Source: Flavobacterium notoginsengisoli (GTDB lineage Bacteria > Bacteroidota > Bacteroidia > Flavobacteriales > Flavobacteriaceae). Taken from it: DNA of 64,000 bases. The notes under the pieces are model-generated. The model had not been told where the DNA came from, made no database searches, and worked only from the letters and a program-made list of their open reading frames with translations. The stretch spans positions 186,001 to 250,000 of the forward strand of contig NZ_JACHLB010000005.1 in assembly GCF_014207905.1 (NCBI RefSeq), written 5' to 3'. The translations under genes were made by a program, and so were the position numbers. Below, one piece after another: positions 3,547 through 47,818 of this stretch (position 1 is its first letter; each line of letters begins with the position of its first letter).

Positions 3547-5451
3547 TTAATCTCTTCTTGATCTTCTTGGTCGTGAATTATCGCCAAAGTTTTCTGAACG
3601 TCTTGGAGCTCTATCAGAACCACCATTTTCGCCTCTTGGAGCAGAGCTTCTAAAACCACCTTCTCTTCTTGAAGATGAATTTCTATCACCTCTGAAACCT
3701 CCTTCGCGAGAACCTCCGTCTCTTGAAGAGTTTCTGTCACTTCTGAAGCCTCCTTCACGTCTTGGAGCAAAGTTTCCTTCTCTTCTTCCAGAATCACGTC
3801 TTCCTCCACGGTTGTTGTGGTCACGTCTTCCTCCACCATCATTTTTAGAAATTTCAACATTGATACGACGACCTTCTAATTGTACGTTGTTCAAAACATC
3901 CATTACTTTATCAGTGTGCTGAGGATCAGTATTGAAGAAAGAGAATCCTTCTTTTACATCTACTTTAAAGATGTCATCACGACCTAAATCTAATGTTTCT
4001 TTTAAGTAATCTTTCAATGACATCCAGTCGAAGTTATCTCTAGAACCGATATTTACGAAATAACGAACAGCTCCATTATTACTGAATTCTCTTGGTTCAG
4101 AATCACCTCTTTCACGTCTTTCGCCACCAGATACAGAAATATCTCTGTTCTTTTTGTAGTAAGCGATGAAACGGTTAAATTCTACTGAAACCATTTTCTT
4201 AATCAATTCTTCTTTAGATAAATCTTCAAGAACATTATTGATTGCTGGTAAGTAGTTGTCAATTTCGTGATCAACTTCAGTATCTTTAATTTTGTTTGCT
4301 AAGTGTAATAACTGAATTTCGCAGATTTCAATTCCAGATGGAATAGATTTTTCTTCAAATTTCTGTTTGATGATTCTTTCGATAGAAGAAATTTTACGTA
4401 ATTCACTTTTTGTAACAATTACAATAGAAGTACCTAATTTTCCTGCTCTACCTGTACGACCAGAACGGTGGTTGTAAGTTTCGATTTCATCAGGTAATTG
4501 GTAGTTAACAACGTGCGTTACGTTATCAACGTCAATTCCACGTGCAGCAACGTCAGTAGCAACAAGCATCTGAATTTGTCTTCCACGGAAAGATTTCATT
4601 ACACCATCACGTTGTGCTTGAGATAAATCTCCGTGTAACGCAGCGGCGCTATATCCATCCTCAATTAACTTCTCAGCGATAGCTTGTGTGTCTCTTTTTG
4701 TACGACAGAAAACTACAGAAAAGATATCTGGATTAGCATCAGCTAAACGTTTCAAAGCTTCGTAACGGTCACGAGCGTTAACTAAATAAAATTCGTGAGA
4801 AACTGTAGAAGAACCTGAGTTTTTTGTTCCAACAGTAATTTCTAATGGATCGCTCATGAATTGTTTTGCAATTCTAGCAACCTCTTGCGGCATAGTTGCA
4901 GAAAACAACCATGTGCTTTTTTCGTCTGGAGTATCTGATAAAATAGATACGATATCATCATAGAATCCCATGTTTAACATTTCGTCAGCCTCATCAAGAA
5001 CACAGTAATCTATGTTTTTAATGTTTACCAAACCTCTATTAATCATGTCTTGCATTCTTCCTGGAGTAGCCACAATAATTTGTGCTCCTCTTTTTACTTC
5101 TCTTGCTTGTTCTGTTATACTAGCTCCTCCGTAAACTGCTACCACATTAATACCTTTTTCGTATTTTGAGTAGTTTTTAAGTTCGTTAGTAATCTGTAAA
5201 CATAACTCGCGTGTTGGCGATAAAACTAATGCCTGTGTATTTCTGTTGTCAGCATCAATTTTTTGAATTAGCGGAAAACCGAAAGCTGCCGTTTTCCCTG
5301 TCCCTGTTTGAGCCAACGCAACCATATCCGTGTCTTTTTCCAATAATAGGGGAATCGCCTTTTCCTGTACCTCTGACGGATTTTCAAATCCTAGATCTAA
5401 AATCGCCTTCAGTAACGATTCATTCAATCCTAATTGTTCAAATTTATTCAT
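3547..5451 (-). CDS. DEAD-box ATP-dependent RNA helicase with DbpA-like RNA-binding domain and RG-rich tail
   Basis: Start chosen at the ATG at 5451 (MNKFEQLGLNES, 634 aa); an upstream ATG at 5475 adds eight unlikely residues. The helicase core carries the Q motif, motif I AQTGTGKTAAFGF, DEAD in VLDEADEMLN, SAT in FSATMPQ, and motif VI HRSGRTGRAG. At about residues 460-550 there is a DbpA/CsdA-type RNA-recognition domain (VRYFVNIGSRDNFDW). The last ~90 residues are Arg/Gly/Ser-rich repeats (GGFRSDRNSS, GGFRGDRNSS), a disordered RNA-binding tail. It is likely to act in ribosome assembly or cold adaptation, like CsdA/DeaD. A TAATTTTG element reads on the minus strand at 5480-5473. A different protein from the second helicase at 44016. 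Confidence 0.93.
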   Translation of the reverse strand: MNKFEQLGLNESLLKAILDLGFENPSEVQEKAIPLLLEKDTDMVALAQTGTGKTAAFGFPLIQKIDADNRNTQALVLSPTRELCLQITNELKNYSKYEKGINVVAVYGGASITEQAREVKRGAQIIVATPGRMQDMINRGLVNIKNIDYCVLDEADEMLNMGFYDDIVSILSDTPDEKSTWLFSATMPQEVARIAKQFMSDPLEITVGTKNSGSSTVSHEFYLVNARDRYEALKRLADANPDIFSVVFCRTKRDTQAIAEKLIEDGYSAAALHGDLSQAQRDGVMKSFRGRQIQMLVATDVAARGIDVDNVTHVVNYQLPDEIETYNHRSGRTGRAGKLGTSIVIVTKSELRKISSIERIIKQKFEEKSIPSGIEICEIQLLHLANKIKDTEVDHEIDNYLPAINNVLEDLSKEELIKKMVSVEFNRFIAYYKKNRDISVSGGERRERGDSEPREFSNNGAVRYFVNIGSRDNFDWMSLKDYLKETLDLGRDDIFKVDVKEGFSFFNTDPQHTDKVMDVLNNVQLEGRRINVEISKNDGGGRRDHNNRGGRRDSGRREGNFAPRREGGFRSDRNSSRDGGSREGGFRGDRNSSSRREGGFRSSAPRGENGGSDRAPRRSENFGDNSRPRRSRRD

Positions 5452-5655
5452 ATGTGTTTTAAAAATAGGGTGCAAAATTACTGCTAATTATTCAGATAAA
5501 CTAATGCAATTTTAAGAATTATATATTTGTTAAGATTTGATTGTCAAAAAGTTACGTTTTTATTAAAATAATTTTTTTACTAAAAATGAGAAAATGCTGA
5601 AAAAAAACGCTAGAAAATGTAAAATTTAGCGCTTAAAATGTTGTATTTTAAACAA

Positions 5656-6234
5656 TTATTTCGTGTTATTCAGAAAATCAATTAGTTGCTTTACTGCTTT
5701 TCCGCGATGACCAATAGTATTTTTAGTCTCCAAAGGCAATTGGGCAAAGGTTTCGTTATAATTTTCTGGCTGGAAAATTGGATCATATCCAAAGCCATTT
5801 GTACCTATTTTTTCTAATGTAATATTTCCAGAGGCAATTCCTGTAAATAAATATTGTTTTCCGTTAAGGTTTAATGTAATAACAGTTTTGAATTGAGCTC
5901 TTCTATTTTCTTCGTTTTTTAATGCATCTAGAAGTTTGTTCATATTATCGTCTGCATTTTTTTGCTCTCCGGCATATCTCGCAGAATATACTCCTGGTTC
6001 GCCATTTAATGCAAAAACTTCTAAACCAGTGTCATCTGCAAAACAATCATAACCATATTTTTGAGTAACATAATCGGCTTTTAAAATCGCATTTCCTTCT
6101 ATAGTGTCAGCAGTTTCAGGAATATCTTCAAAACAATTAATGTCTTCTAAACTTAATATTTTGATGCTTTCGGGAAGCATACTTTGAATTTCGGCTATTT
6201 TGTTTTTGTTGTTTGAAGCGAAAACGAGTTTCAT
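5656..6234 (-). CDS. rdgB: Non-canonical purine NTP pyrophosphatase, RdgB/HAM1 family
   Basis: This 192-aa cytosolic enzyme hydrolyses dITP, ITP and XTP to monophosphates, cleaning the nucleotide pool. It opens with the nucleotide-binding motif MKLVFASNNKNKIAEI (usual form TxNxxKxxE). It also carries the acidic metal-binding site DDTGLEV, the GVYSARYAG loop, and the C-terminal GYDPIFQPE and HRGKAVKQL motifs. Length is normal. It diverges from the ABC transporter gene at 6312, with only 77 bases between the starts. A TATATTTG element (6280-6287) points toward the transporter. Confidence 0.93.
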   Translation of the reverse strand: MKLVFASNNKNKIAEIQSMLPESIKILSLEDINCFEDIPETADTIEGNAILKADYVTQKYGYDCFADDTGLEVFALNGEPGVYSARYAGEQKNADDNMNKLLDALKNEENRRAQFKTVITLNLNGKQYLFTGIASGNITLEKIGTNGFGYDPIFQPENYNETFAQLPLETKNTIGHRGKAVKQLIDFLNNTK

Positions 6235-6311
6235 AGAATTAATGTGTTTAAATGATTTTCAACACAAATTTAGAATTCTTATATTTGATATGTAGCCTAA
6301 AAGTGAAATAA

Positions 6312-8090
6312 ATGCAATTATCGGTATTATATAAAAAAATCCTGCCTTTTGTAAAACCTTACAGAAAAATGGTAATTGCGACTTTACTGCTTACATTTTT
6401 AGGTTCGTTTGCAGCTCAGGTAAATGCAGTAATCTTAAAATATACTGTTGATACAATCAATAATTTAATGGTGGCGCATGAACCTTTATCAAAAGGATTT
6501 CATTTGTTAGGAATTATTAGTGTTGTATTGTTGACGAAGGAGTTGGTAAATTCGATTGTGCAATTTGGGCAAAAATTCTACGGAGAGAAACTTCGTATTT
6601 TTATCACTCGCGATATTTCTCAAACAATTGTCGAAAAAATTCTGAGCTACAGAATGGAATTTTATACTTCTGACGAAAATGAAAGTGGTAAACTTCAAAC
6701 CAGAATTGATGCTGGAATTAGTAGCTTAACAAGATTGGTTCAAAACTTTTTTATCGACATTCTTCCGTTATTTGCCAATGCTTTTGTGGCTCTAGTAATT
6801 ATGTTTTATGCTAATGTTTATGTCGGTTTGGTGAGTTTATGTATTATTCCGATCTATTTTTATATCAGTCAGTTACAGGCAACAAGATTAAGCGGGTTTA
6901 GACGAAGAATGCGTAATTATCGCGAAACGAAGAATAACGGAATTATCAGTCTAATCGAATCAATTACTGTCATTAAATCTTTTGTACGCGAATCTACAGA
7001 AGCCGATCGCCATGAAAAGATACAATATGAAATGACCGAAAATCAATTGGAAACACGAAAAACTAGTTTCATTTTTGAAAGTATTAAAAGTTTTGTTGAG
7101 CAGATTGGAGTTGTAATTATTATAATCTTGACGGCTTATTTTGTATTAAATAATCAGATGACAATTGGAGCCATTATGTTTCATATTATGTTGTTTAATA
7201 ATGTTTCGTCCCCAATTCGACAATTGCATCGAATTTATGATGAAGTAAACGATGCGTTGATTTATTCTGAAGGTTTCTTTGATATTTTAGAAGCAGAAAA
7301 AGAAATAGAAACCAGCGGTAATTATATTCCAGAAAAAATTAAAGGTTTAATTGAAGTTAAAAATGTTGATTTTGTTTATCCAAACGGAACTCAAGCATTG
7401 TTTGATATTAATTTTACGGTTAAACCAAATGAAACATCTGCTTTGGTTGGATTAAGCGGTGCAGGAAAAAGTACGATTATCAATTTATTGGATAAATTTT
7501 ATTTGCCGTCGTCAGGTCAGATTTTTTTAGATGGAGTAGATTTAGCCGATTATAACACCGATTTTCTTCGTAAAAATATCGGATTGGTGTTGCAGAAAAA
7601 CCATATTTTCAAAGGAACAGTTGCTGAGAATATTTTATACGGAAATCCTGAAGCTTCTCAAGAAGAAATTATCGAAGCTGCCAAACAAGCTTATATTCAC
7701 GAACAAGTTGTTCAATTGCCAAAAGGTTACGATTCTGATGCGCATTTGCTTTCAGGCGGACAGCAGCAACGAATTGCCATTGCAAGACTTTTTCTTAAAA
7801 ATCCGCCAATTATTTTTCTGGATGAGCCAACGGCGAGTTTAGATGCTATTGCTACGGAGCAAATTAAAAAATCGCTGGATGCCATTAAAAAAGACAGAAC
7901 CGTCATTATCATTTCGCATAGTATTTCTCAAATAATTGATTCCTCCAATATTATTGTTTTAGAAAAGGGAAGATGCGTTGAAAATGGAACTCATGATCAA
8001 TTGTTTGATAATAAAGGAACCTATTATCAAATATTTATGGCAATGGCAAATAGTTTAAATATTGATAAAATCACTCAGACTTTTGATTGA
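6312..8090 (+). CDS. ABC transporter, fused permease and ATP-binding protein (exporter type)
   Basis: This is a 592-aa half-transporter. Residues ~20-310 form an ABC exporter transmembrane domain with six predicted helices. The nucleotide-binding domain begins near residue 345, with Walker A GLSGAGKST, signature LLSGGQQQRIAIAR, Walker B IIFLDEPTASLD and the switch His in IIISHSISQ. It should work as a homodimer exporting a lipid, drug or peptide; the substrate cannot be told. Its last 20 bases overlap tail-to-tail with the convergent DUF2809 gene (8071-8090). It has no accessory protein nearby that would indicate a secretion system. Confidence 0.9.
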   Translation: MQLSVLYKKILPFVKPYRKMVIATLLLTFLGSFAAQVNAVILKYTVDTINNLMVAHEPLSKGFHLLGIISVVLLTKELVNSIVQFGQKFYGEKLRIFITRDISQTIVEKILSYRMEFYTSDENESGKLQTRIDAGISSLTRLVQNFFIDILPLFANAFVALVIMFYANVYVGLVSLCIIPIYFYISQLQATRLSGFRRRMRNYRETKNNGIISLIESITVIKSFVRESTEADRHEKIQYEMTENQLETRKTSFIFESIKSFVEQIGVVIIIILTAYFVLNNQMTIGAIMFHIMLFNNVSSPIRQLHRIYDEVNDALIYSEGFFDILEAEKEIETSGNYIPEKIKGLIEVKNVDFVYPNGTQALFDINFTVKPNETSALVGLSGAGKSTIINLLDKFYLPSSGQIFLDGVDLADYNTDFLRKNIGLVLQKNHIFKGTVAENILYGNPEASQEEIIEAAKQAYIHEQVVQLPKGYDSDAHLLSGGQQQRIAIARLFLKNPPIIFLDEPTASLDAIATEQIKKSLDAIKKDRTVIIISHSISQIIDSSNIIVLEKGRCVENGTHDQLFDNKGTYYQIFMAMANSLNIDKITQTFD

Positions 8091-45531: not shown

Positions 45532-46296
45532 TTAAAAACCTTCGAAAACCCCTAATCCAAACAAAGCAAAATCATATTTTACAGGGTCATTCGGATCCAT
45601 TTCTCTTAATTTTGTATCTAATTCTAATAATGCTTTTGCATCATTTTGCTTTCGCGAAAGAATTTCGAGTTTTCGAGCTACATTTCCAGAATGAACATCG
45701 AGCGGACAAGAAAGAACAGCAGGAGAAATGCTTTTCCAAATTCCTAAATCTACTCCTTTTGCATCTTGACGAACCATCCATCTTAGATACATGTTAATTC
45801 TCTTCGCGGCAGAATTATTTAAAGGATCGGAAATGTGTTTTTGAGTTCTTGCTAAATGATCGGTTTCAAAGAATATTTTTTTGAATTCGCTAATGCTTTT
45901 TTGTAAACTATCTTTTTCTTGATTTTTAGCGAAGACATTTTCTAATCCGTTGTGGTTTACATAAATGTTTTTTAGACCTTTTATAAAACCAGCGAAATCG
46001 TGTCCATTGAAAGTTCTGTGAACAAAAGTTTCCAGCCTAGCCAAATCTTCATCAGAATGTGACATAACGAAATCGTATGGCGTATTACCCATTAATTCCA
46101 TCATTCTGTGTGAATTCTTGATAATCATTTTACGATTTCCCCAAGCGATAGATGCGCTCAGAAAACCAGCAATCTCAATATCTTCTTTTTGAGTAAAAAG
46201 ATGCGGAATCTGAACAGGATCACTTTCTATAAAATCCTGATTATTATATTGAATGACTTTCTCATCTAGAAAATCTTTAAGTTCTTTTTGATTCAT
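45532..46296 (-). CDS. TIGR02757 family protein
   Basis: This 254-aa cytosolic protein matches the TIGR02757 family of Bacteroidota by the opening LKDFLDEKVIQYNNQDFIESDPVQIPH, the central NRKMIIKNSHRMMELMGNTPYDFV, and WMVRQDAKGVDLGIWKSISP with LSCPLDVHSGNVARKL near the end. The fold is related to HhH-GPD-like DNA glycosylases in this family's description, though I see no clear catalytic Lys. Function unknown. Its start is 36 bases from the stop of the LolD-like ATPase gene on the same strand. Confidence 0.82.
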   Translation of the reverse strand: MNQKELKDFLDEKVIQYNNQDFIESDPVQIPHLFTQKEDIEIAGFLSASIAWGNRKMIIKNSHRMMELMGNTPYDFVMSHSDEDLARLETFVHRTFNGHDFAGFIKGLKNIYVNHNGLENVFAKNQEKDSLQKSISEFKKIFFETDHLARTQKHISDPLNNSAAKRINMYLRWMVRQDAKGVDLGIWKSISPAVLSCPLDVHSGNVARKLEILSRKQNDAKALLELDTKLREMDPNDPVKYDFALFGLGVFEGF

Positions 46297-46332: not shown

Positions 46333-47211
46333 TTAATTACTAATTTGCCCATCGACCATAACCAATTTTCTATCTGCCATATTCGCTAATTCTTCGTTAT
46401 GTGTTACAATAACAAATGTCTGTCCGAATTCGTCGCGAAGCTGAAAAAATAATTGATGCAGATTTTCTGCAGAATGTGTATCTAAATTTCCAGAAGGTTC
46501 ATCAGCAAAAATAACATCTGGTTTATTGATTAAAGCTCTTGCAACAGCCACACGCTGCTGTTCTCCTCCAGAAAGTTCACTTGGTTTATGATTTATTCTA
46601 TGAGAAAGTCCAAGATAGGTAAGCAACTTTACGGCTTCTTTTTCTGTTTCTGATGGTTTTTTACCTGCAATATGAGCTGGAATACAAACATTTTCTAGCG
46701 CTGTAAATTCTGGTAAAAGTTGATGAAACTGAAAAATGAATCCCAAATTTAAATTTCTAAAATCAGATAGTACTTTGTCTTGTTTGCTTTTCTTTTTAAA
46801 ATAACGATTGTAATAAAAAAGCATTGAAATTATAGGTAAAAAAAGCGATATACTTGCAACTAATCGAAGTGTGTCATCGAAGATTTTTGTTCTAAAAAAC
46901 AATAAATAAACTGCTAGAAGTATGATATAAATAGAACCCGTCCAAGTAATAATTTTAAAATTCCTTTCTTGTTTTGAACTCTTGTTCTGAACATTTTGCA
47001 ATTCAAGAATGTCTCTTCCGTTAATGGTTAAAGAAGAATCTGCATTATGGTCTGGTTTGTCTAAAGTTCCTAAAATTTGCAATAAAGTTGTTTTTCCAGC
47101 ACCTGAAGCACCAACAATAGAAACAATTTCGCCTTTTTTAATATGTAAATCAACTCCCTTTAAAACTTCTAGTTTGTCGTAAAATTTATGTATGTTTTTT
47201 GCGTGTATCAT
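46333..47211 (-). CDS. LolD-like ABC ATPase with an inserted two-helix membrane hairpin
   Basis: This 292-aa protein has a normal LolD/MacB-type ATPase: Walker A GASGAGKT (about residues 34-41), Q-loop [18 protein letters not shown] (159-175), signature [15 protein letters not shown], Walker [13 protein letters not shown] and the switch His in IVTHNE. Between DILELQN and [10 protein letters not shown], where relatives have only a few residues, there are about 73 extra residues (74-146). These hold two hydrophobic helices, near 89-106 and 115-134, with Lys/Arg-rich segments on both outer sides. The frame is unbroken. The hairpin could anchor the ATPase to the membrane. No partner permease is next to it. 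The intended transporter may be a lipoprotein or peptide exporter. Confidence 0.87.
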
Positions 47212-47327: not shown

Positions 47328-47424
47328 AAAATCTAAAATCTAAAATCTAAAATCTAAAATCTAAAATCTAAAATCTAAAATCTAAAATCTAAAATCTAAA
47401 ATCTAAAATCTAAAATCTAAAATC
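47328..47424 (+). repeat. Tandem heptamer array AAAATCT, 13 full copies plus a partial
   Basis: The 7-base unit AAAATCT repeats 13 times without a mismatch, then AAAATC. It begins six bases after the palindrome at 47293-47321. Similar words occur singly before bcp (33966-34001) and near 63646. Such a perfect array is prone to slippage and so may vary between strains. Confidence 0.93.
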
Positions 47425-47533: not shown

Positions 47534-47818
47534 ATGCAGGATTTGAATGTTGTAGAAGATGATAAGCTGTCAAAACTAATTATCGGATTGGTTTTGGATG
47601 GAATTGGAATGATTTCTTTTTCTATTCCGCTTCTTGGTGAATTTTCAGATGTAATCTGGGCGCCAATTGCAGCTTTTTTAATGACAAGAATGTATAAGGG
47701 AAGAGTAGGAAAGGTGGCTAGTGCTTTAACTTTTATTGAAGAGATACTGCCTTTTACAGATTTAATTCCGTCATTTACCTTGACATGGATTTATACCTAT
47801 TTCTTTCAGAGAAAATAA
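47534..47818 (+). CDS. Small membrane protein (94 aa)
   Basis: This 94-aa protein starts MQDLNVVEDDKLSKLIIGLVLD. It has two or three hydrophobic segments (LDGIGMISFSIPLLG, VIWAPIAAFLM, and a final SFTLTWIYTYFF). The Asp/Glu-rich beginning and the membrane segments suggest an inner-membrane protein; similar small proteins are common in Flavobacterium, function unknown. Its upstream region contains the heptamer array. A terminator follows at 47819. Confidence 0.7.
   Translation: MQDLNVVEDDKLSKLIIGLVLDGIGMISFSIPLLGEFSDVIWAPIAAFLMTRMYKGRVGKVASALTFIEEILPFTDLIPSFTLTWIYTYFFQRK

Follow-up and report, generated by a model that had tools for sequence, protein, structure and literature searches.

The window analyzed here, a 64,000-nucleotide stretch of a Flavobacterium notoginsengisoli contig, carries on its reverse strand a lolD-like ABC ATPase gene (46333..47211, stop codon included) encoding a protein of 292 amino acids. 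Its downstream neighbor on the same strand is a DUF2400/TIGR02757 gene (45532..46296), followed by a gene that presumably resembles a DEAD-box helicase, whereas the upstream neighbor, on the forward strand (47534..47818), encodes a 94-aa protein with no Pfam or NCBIfam match. The 7-mer AAAATCT is repeated perfectly ~13.9 times at positions 47328-47424, just upstream of the lolD start.

The best curated family for the ATPase is LolD (TIGR02211, E 9e-75), which ranks first among 189 NCBIfam matches and matches the protein in two stretches. The score of 251 bits lies below the whole-protein cut-off of this model (307.75), as does that of an orthologue lacking the inserted segment described below (271.1 bits), and we therefore refer to the protein as LolD-like. 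The curated cut-offs of the FtsE model (TIGR02673; 181.8 vs. 264.85 bits) and of the MacB model (PRK10535; 188.9 vs. 966 bits) were not reached either, the best stretch of the latter match covering only the NBD part of the model. At least 195 of 199 Flavobacterium genomes yielded a LolD match at E ≤ 1e-60, one apiece among the best candidates scored; in the genome of F. notoginsengisoli, where all 104 candidates were scored, the next match after lolD was at 8e-36. The first part of the NBD (residues 1-72; 46996..47211) contains what we take to be the A-loop region, Walker A (G34-T42), and the first beta subdomain, and the second part (residues 162-292; 46336..46728) presumably contains the LSGGE motif (213-217), Walker B (FADE, 235-238), the D-loop, and the H-loop (H271), with Q161 as the likely Q-loop glutamine between the two. 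As read from the translation, all these motifs lie in one frame, and the predicted fold is that of a normal NBD, so that the window protein combines the predicted NBD fold and the full motif set of LolD (TIGR02211), in agreement with the original prediction that the ATPase motifs are intact.

Anatomy of the inserted segment

Between Walker A and the Q-loop, the protein contains a segment of ~74 residues (73-146; 46774..46995, reverse strand) that is absent from all 40 uninserted orthologues fetched and present in the window and in 56 further loci. At the insertion point, the 40 uninserted orthologues read (N/S/K)DKxLSxFRN or a close variant, and the ten closest of them are 220-230 aa long, compared to 292 aa in the window. 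The insertion anticipated by the original prediction is real and extends one codon further at its 5′ end than proposed there. The parts of the segment, all on the reverse strand, are a first stalk (residues 76-87; 46951..46986), which forms the start of a helix predicted by AlphaFold2 at residues 76-106 and is also apparent from pN/pS; hydrophobic helix 1 (88-106; 46894..46950), with the invariant Y95, recognized from hydropathy, pN/pS, and exclusion of charge; a short polar loop (107-115; 46867..46893), predicted to be periplasmic from the putative topology; hydrophobic helix 2 (116-135; 46807..46866), with the invariant P126, recognized from pN/pS and exclusion of charge; and a second stalk (136-147; 46771..46806), with a net charge of +5 and the lowest pN/pS within the insert. 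From here, the second predicted helix (113-155) enters residues 148-161 (46729..46770), which comprise alpha2 and the strand leading to the Q-loop glutamine and for which a role in the coupling cavity is suggested by analogy with FtsE (PMC7468199).

The two hydrophobic helices and the short loop between them, both part of the original prediction, are borne out by hydropathy as well as by the AlphaFold2 model. In 19-residue windows, the insert yields two hydropathy peaks (2.13 and 1.94), with no scored window outside the insert above 1.33, and none of 20,000 shuffles of the insert's own residues, which address the arrangement and not the composition of the segment, reproduced two such peaks. 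As originally suggested, the hairpin would return to the cytosol. The accompanying claim that both flanks are rich in lysine and arginine describes the window (net charge +3 on the N side, residues 74-88; +1 in the loop, residues 106-116; +5 on the C side, residues 136-149) but, in general, only the C side: across 55 sequences of equal length, the mean charge is +5.04 for residues 136-147 and +0.07 for the N-side stretch 73-86.

The insert is AT-richer than the core of the gene (GC content 0.261 vs. 0.335), a difference in composition that does not settle its origin. A repeat scan detected a 13-nt tandem duplication (92% alike) at 46967-46992, within the 5′ stalk region, and reported no repeat pair flanking the insert. 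The search for a mobile element or a domain of known origin yielded no convincing family. The commonest Pfam match, to the 40-residue model DUF3149 (E ≤ 1 in 17 of 20 members, best 2.1e-06), is read as a matter of composition; in the window, this match scores 13.5 bits against a cut-off of 23.2 and is confined to the stalk and the last part of helix 2. Comparison of the insert with the PDB gave a single weak match (E 0.027), and no second copy was found in the same genome at E ≤ 0.01. Length variation in the first half of the NBD is also seen in uninserted LolD proteins, in which the loop following GTLDKP differs in length between species (e.g., loci L142, L156, L159, and L165).

Distribution of the insert

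Among the 199 Flavobacterium genomes, at least 20, including that of F. notoginsengisoli, encode a LolD match that runs through the insert (79-100% identity), and the other matches listed start at residues 131-145. Scanning of genome contigs from another collection with two peptide patterns recovered 56 insert-bearing loci, a lower bound given the method, of which 53 are titled Flavobacterium (at least one of them Flavobacterium johnsoniae, strain CI04, locus L079), two “Flavobacteriaceae bacterium,” and one “[Flexibacter] sp.” Every one of these loci encodes a full-length, in-frame protein (292 residues in 53 loci, 291 in two, and 295 in one). The insert has the same length in 55 of the 57 sequences, the window included; the other two are one residue shorter, and these two one-residue losses aside, no truncation or frameshift of the insert was found in the 57 sequences. 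Scans of viral contigs for further sequences returned 0, 1, and 9 loci.

Searches with the insert beyond the genus gave two strong matches in 397 genomes of the family, both from Flavobacterium, and seven matches in 395 genomes of the phylum, all from Flavobacterium (one of 170 genera). Eighteen weak matches in family genomes outside Flavobacterium (E 1.2e-4 to 9.5e-3), several of them with stop codons, are read as chance hydrophobic matches. The uninserted orthologue used as a query in 249 family genomes had at least 237 strong matches, essentially end to end among the matches listed. The insert is thus seen only in part of Flavobacterium and is not the lineage-wide feature of Flavobacteriia that had been considered initially. 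The same surveys bear on the concern that the segment is an assembly or cloning artefact or, alternatively, a hydrophobic stretch buried in the soluble core. We found no point in support of this explanation and consider it extremely improbable: the occurrence of the in-frame insert in related genomes and in loci of a second collection, that is, in independent assemblies, refutes the former half, and the predicted NBD core, complete without the insert, argues against the latter.

Evolutionary history

To be read with their sampling in mind, phylogenies of LolD computed after removal of the insert columns place the 57 inserted sequences on one side of a branch (support 100/98) opposite 18 uninserted sequences that were hand-picked from 40, the 22 distant or long-branched ones having been dropped after quick trees. 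One of the dropped sequences (L166) had grouped among the carriers in the quick LolD tree; for the full set of 97 sequences, a single clade of carriers is not rejected (p 0.94). Quick trees misplaced some sequences (for the 97-sequence set, trees in which the carriers were held together were ~50 log units higher), and careful trees were used instead. For comparison with other genes, 30 genomes were chosen by hand (18 of the 20 carriers and 12 non-carriers). In the LolD-core tree of this set, the starred branches force two changes, because genome G159 is placed among the carriers; a single clade comprising all 18 carriers is not rejected (p 0.32). The rpoB+gyrB+dnaK tree, on the other hand, needs five changes, all of them imposed by branches with good support, and a single carrier clade is rejected (p 5e-69); in this tree, the carrier G004 groups with the non-carrier G175. 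Each of the rpoB, gyrB, dnaK, and DUF2400 trees also rejects the carriers as one clade. Vertical descent with one loss, a scenario considered at first, was abandoned in view of the rejection of a single carrier clade in the DUF2400, rpoB, gyrB, dnaK, and three-gene trees.

LolD does not reject the grouping of G004 with G175 (p 0.16) but rejects another grouping of the three-gene tree, that of G103 with G052, G114, and G075 (p 0.005), and support for exchange between lineages is accordingly partial. The simplest reading of these trees is that the segment originated once and that lolD alleles were subsequently exchanged, that the segment was repeatedly lost, or both; one early gain followed by repeated loss would also be compatible with the trees. 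Across the 30 genomes (loci L178-L267), the rpoB, gyrB, dnaK, lolD, and DUF2400 trees differ from one another, suggesting that homologous exchange is common in this part of the genus.

A candidate for loss is G159, whose lolD (locus L162) has no insert. In 31 of 34 windows, this locus scores best with Flavobacterium collinsii (L116) or its relative L117, both of which bear the insert. The exceptions are two windows at the end of the locus and one inside lolD (at 4000), the latter being biased against inserted sequences because the insert breaks their alignment. With the insert columns taken out, the first 75 bases of lolD are 99% identical between G159 and F. collinsii, the next 285 are 68-81% identical, and the rest 87-91%. 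Of the sub-windows, one (75-150) is closer to other carriers, and a single one (150-210) clearly resembles uninserted alleles more (0.92 vs. 0.87). The mosaic appearance of lolD in G159 may mean that other DNA has locally replaced the inserted segment, i.e., a possible loss, but the LolD tree test, in which the placement of G159 with its inserted relatives is not rejected (p 0.39), does not confirm this.

Gene neighborhood and permeases

The DUF2400 gene adjoins lolD in most loci, inserted and uninserted (a DUF2400 ORF is present in 94 of 97 loci), and the order lolD, DUF2400, helicase-like gene recurs in both kinds of loci with local changes; the gene for the 94-aa protein is likewise found beside lolD in other inserted and uninserted loci. 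In four carriers (L072, L073, L089, and L113; ~4660-6360), an extra ORF of ~563-565 residues lies between lolD and DUF2400; its product has a hydrophobic start and is probably a polytopic membrane protein. The window has no such ORF at that place.

The F. notoginsengisoli genome has 12 FtsX-domain permease matches, all of them on contigs other than that of lolD. Two stand-alone permeases encoded elsewhere match LolCE (TIGR02212) best, with scores of 173.1 and 171 bits that fall short of the cut-off (362.45), and homologues of both of these LolC/LolE-like proteins are present in all 30 genomes, with or without the insert. The original prediction had linked the absence of an adjacent permease to the insert; since uninserted orthologues have the DUF2400 neighbor too and the permease homologues occur with or without the insert, the orphan state of lolD is not due to the insert. 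The dispersed arrangement is itself noteworthy, given that lolF-lolD operons are described as the rule (PMC11784454).

In an exploratory scan for permease alignment columns associated with the insert, with significance gauged by 60 label shuffles that ignore kinship, the best column of the LolC-like permease had a phi of 0.77 (27 of the 30 genomes) and was reached by none of the 60 shuffles. The best column of the LolE-like permease (phi 0.68, 30 genomes) was reached by ~2% of shuffles and that of the gyrB control (phi 0.63) by ~8%. No column in either permease separates inserted from uninserted genomes perfectly (27-30 genomes).

Selection on the insert

Among 20 carriers, mean pairwise identity is 59% in the insert (minimum 41%) and 92.5% in the core (minimum 87%), and over 57 close pairs the pN/pS ratio is 0.176 in the insert vs. 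0.036 in the core. Within the insert, this ratio is lowest in the stalks (0.091 for residues 73-86 and 0.053 for 136-147), intermediate in the loop (0.155), and highest in the helices (0.204 and 0.305). Departures from the consensus to charged residues, counted over related sequences and hence not as independent cases, make up 1.0% of 307 departures in residues 88-106, where single-base changes would be expected to yield 9.2%, and 0 of 444 in residues 117-134, with an expectation of 13.7%. This count did not include column 116, where helix 2 meets the loop; this column is mostly R or G (R in 28 of 55 sequences, E in two). Charged residues amount to 0.3% in residues 87-106 and to 2.9% in 116-135, nearly all of the latter at column 116. 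Y95 and P126 are invariant in all 57 sequences. Judging from these substitution patterns, selection keeps the helices uncharged and the stalks conserved. Helices that exchange hydrophobic residues but exclude charged ones, a fixed length, and conservation of the polar stalks together form the pattern expected of a membrane hairpin on a structured stalk.

An alternative to a functional hairpin is that the segment is a tolerated passenger, which arose once and persists because it is harmless, with selection acting only against misfolding or clashes with the membrane. The elevated pN/pS of the insert relative to the core, the patchy occurrence with a possible loss in one genome, and the lack of a recognizable origin would all fit such a scenario. 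Nevertheless, we consider it quite improbable in view of the intact reading frame in all 57 sequences with only two one-residue losses, the low pN/pS of the stalks, and the two invariant residues.

Predicted structure and the coupling site

An AlphaFold2 model computed from 42 sequences (that of the window, those of 35 of the 56 loci, and six viral-contig ABC proteins) has a mean pLDDT of 88.5 and a pTM of 0.79. An earlier run with 57 similar sequences reached a pLDDT of only 53 and is taken as a first sign, although the two long helices were present there too. The model superimposes on the LolD of Aquifex (2pcj) with a Z score of 33.5 and an rmsd of 1.0 Å over 216 residues, close to the 218 that remain without the insert, with 48% identity over the alignment. 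Foldseek also ranked 2pcj first, and among the 50 entries listed by VIA-align no chain aligned over more than 217 residues. The predicted fold is that of a normal NBD with two helices added on; the original prediction had named placement of the segment in the soluble core as the outcome that would speak against it, and in the model the segment is instead an addition to a complete NBD.

According to the model, the second helix of the hairpin continues into alpha2, the helix preceding the Q-loop. In pneumococcal FtsE, the N-terminus of alpha2, the Q-loop, and a third region shape a modeled cavity for the coupling helix, and HisP is described as having a beta-hairpin insertion in the same beta5-alpha2 loop (PMC7468199), which provides a precedent for insertion there. 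Residue 81 of FtsE aligns with residue 154 of the window protein, so that FtsE residues 71-79 correspond approximately to residues 144-152, where the insert ends. The insertion site thus corresponds to the edge of the cavity modeled for FtsE, consistent with the coupling interface invoked in the original prediction. Since the second helix is predicted to enter alpha2, a part of that cavity, the insertion site plausibly faces the permease, beside the coupling-helix groove, with the caveat that the FtsE cavity is itself a model.

This geometry raises the possibility that the hairpin is a coupling or regulatory element: with the second helix as an extension of alpha2, membrane position, lipid state, or a partner could feed mechanically into the coupling groove, or the hairpin could pack on the permease as extra transmembrane helices and change the stroke. 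The unbroken predicted helix 113-155, the contribution of alpha2 to the cavity modeled for FtsE, the low pN/pS of the stalks together with the invariant Y95 and P126, and permease columns whose association with the insert exceeds that in simple shuffles, more so than in gyrB, are all in line with this possibility. However, the gyrB control comes close to the best permease columns, none of which separates the genomes perfectly, and the patchy presence of the insert among related species suggests that the cycle works without it; a coupling role therefore strikes us as possible but rather unlikely. We also regard as unlikely the reading in which the NBD has become an integral membrane subunit through an internal transmembrane hairpin continuous with alpha2, which would bring four extra helices to each transporter and a second mechanical link from the membrane to the coupling groove beside the coupling helix of the permease, the allele being gained or lost among Flavobacterium species, perhaps by exchange.

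A putative membrane tether in LolD

Collectively, sequence comparison and structure prediction establish a segment of two predicted hydrophobic helices of ~19-20 residues on polar stalks of ~12 residues, apparently added to a complete NBD and maintained by selection. The LolD-like motor protein probably anchors itself in the membrane. The explanation we prefer, with slightly better than even confidence, is that a LolD-like subunit of Flavobacterium gained an in-frame segment in the loop just before alpha2 and that the resulting hairpin tethers LolD beside permeases encoded elsewhere. The helices would form a hairpin across the inner membrane, its two ends in the cytosol, giving two extra membrane helices per LolD, and the stalk would, by analogy with FtsE, emerge next to the coupling-helix groove, on the side of the NBD that faces the permease. 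Such a tether could hold LolD next to the LolC/LolE-like permeases, help to recruit it, and stabilize the complex, but would not be obligatory. In LolCDE of E. coli, the two LolD subunits close in an ATP-driven motion, which shifts the coupling helices and drives TM2 upward (PMC8333309). The ATP-driven cycle of lipoprotein extrusion would itself stay as in LolCDE, with each LolD additionally gripping the bilayer by its own hairpin beside the coupling helix, which might favor finding and keeping the permease. The patchy presence among related species makes the insert optional and speaks for a helper or add-on rather than rebuilt coupling or the partial replacement of the coupling interface that the original prediction had raised as a possibility. 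Conversely, the N-side flank, which is not net positive on average (+0.07), counts against the tether, as do the LolD scores below the curated cut-off for the inserted and the uninserted protein alike. Uninserted species placed close to carriers by the rpoB+gyrB+dnaK tree, together with the possible loss in G159, likewise give no sign that a tether is strongly needed.

LolCDE is essential in E. coli (PMC8333309). Related species with uninserted alleles at the same locus offer a natural comparison, with and without the insert, of the effect of tethering on NBD recruitment and coupling, and lipoprotein transport (lolA, lolB) has already been studied genetically in F. johnsoniae (PMC11885536).

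Among known systems, the window protein has the NBD fold and the best-matching family model in common with LolD of LolCDE (TIGR02211; Aquifex 2pcj; E. coli 7arh and 7v8l), from which it differs in the membrane-type hairpin before alpha2, the absence of a permease gene next to its own, and a score under the curated cut-off. FtsE of FtsEX (6z4w, 6z63) has an NBD of the same type, with the N-terminus of alpha2 in the modeled coupling-helix cavity, but it works with FtsX, and no helical insertion at that loop of FtsE is mentioned in the accessible portion of the report describing the cavity (PMC7468199). The insertion of HisP lies at the same loop of the NBD, but it is described as a beta hairpin (PMC7468199), as opposed to two hydrophobic helices here. 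ABC proteins with a fused membrane domain, MacB among them, carry the NBD and membrane helices in one chain, as does the window protein; however, the NBD of MacB is fused N-terminally to a membrane domain that is the permease (PMC5985334), whereas here two helices interrupt the NBD itself. Within the open-access literature searched, we found no account of LolD or any other ABC NBD containing a membrane hairpin. ABC transporters are, as a basic architectural rule, built from soluble NBDs that dock onto membrane permeases, and a conserved NBD interrupted by a putative membrane hairpin of its own would depart from that rule.
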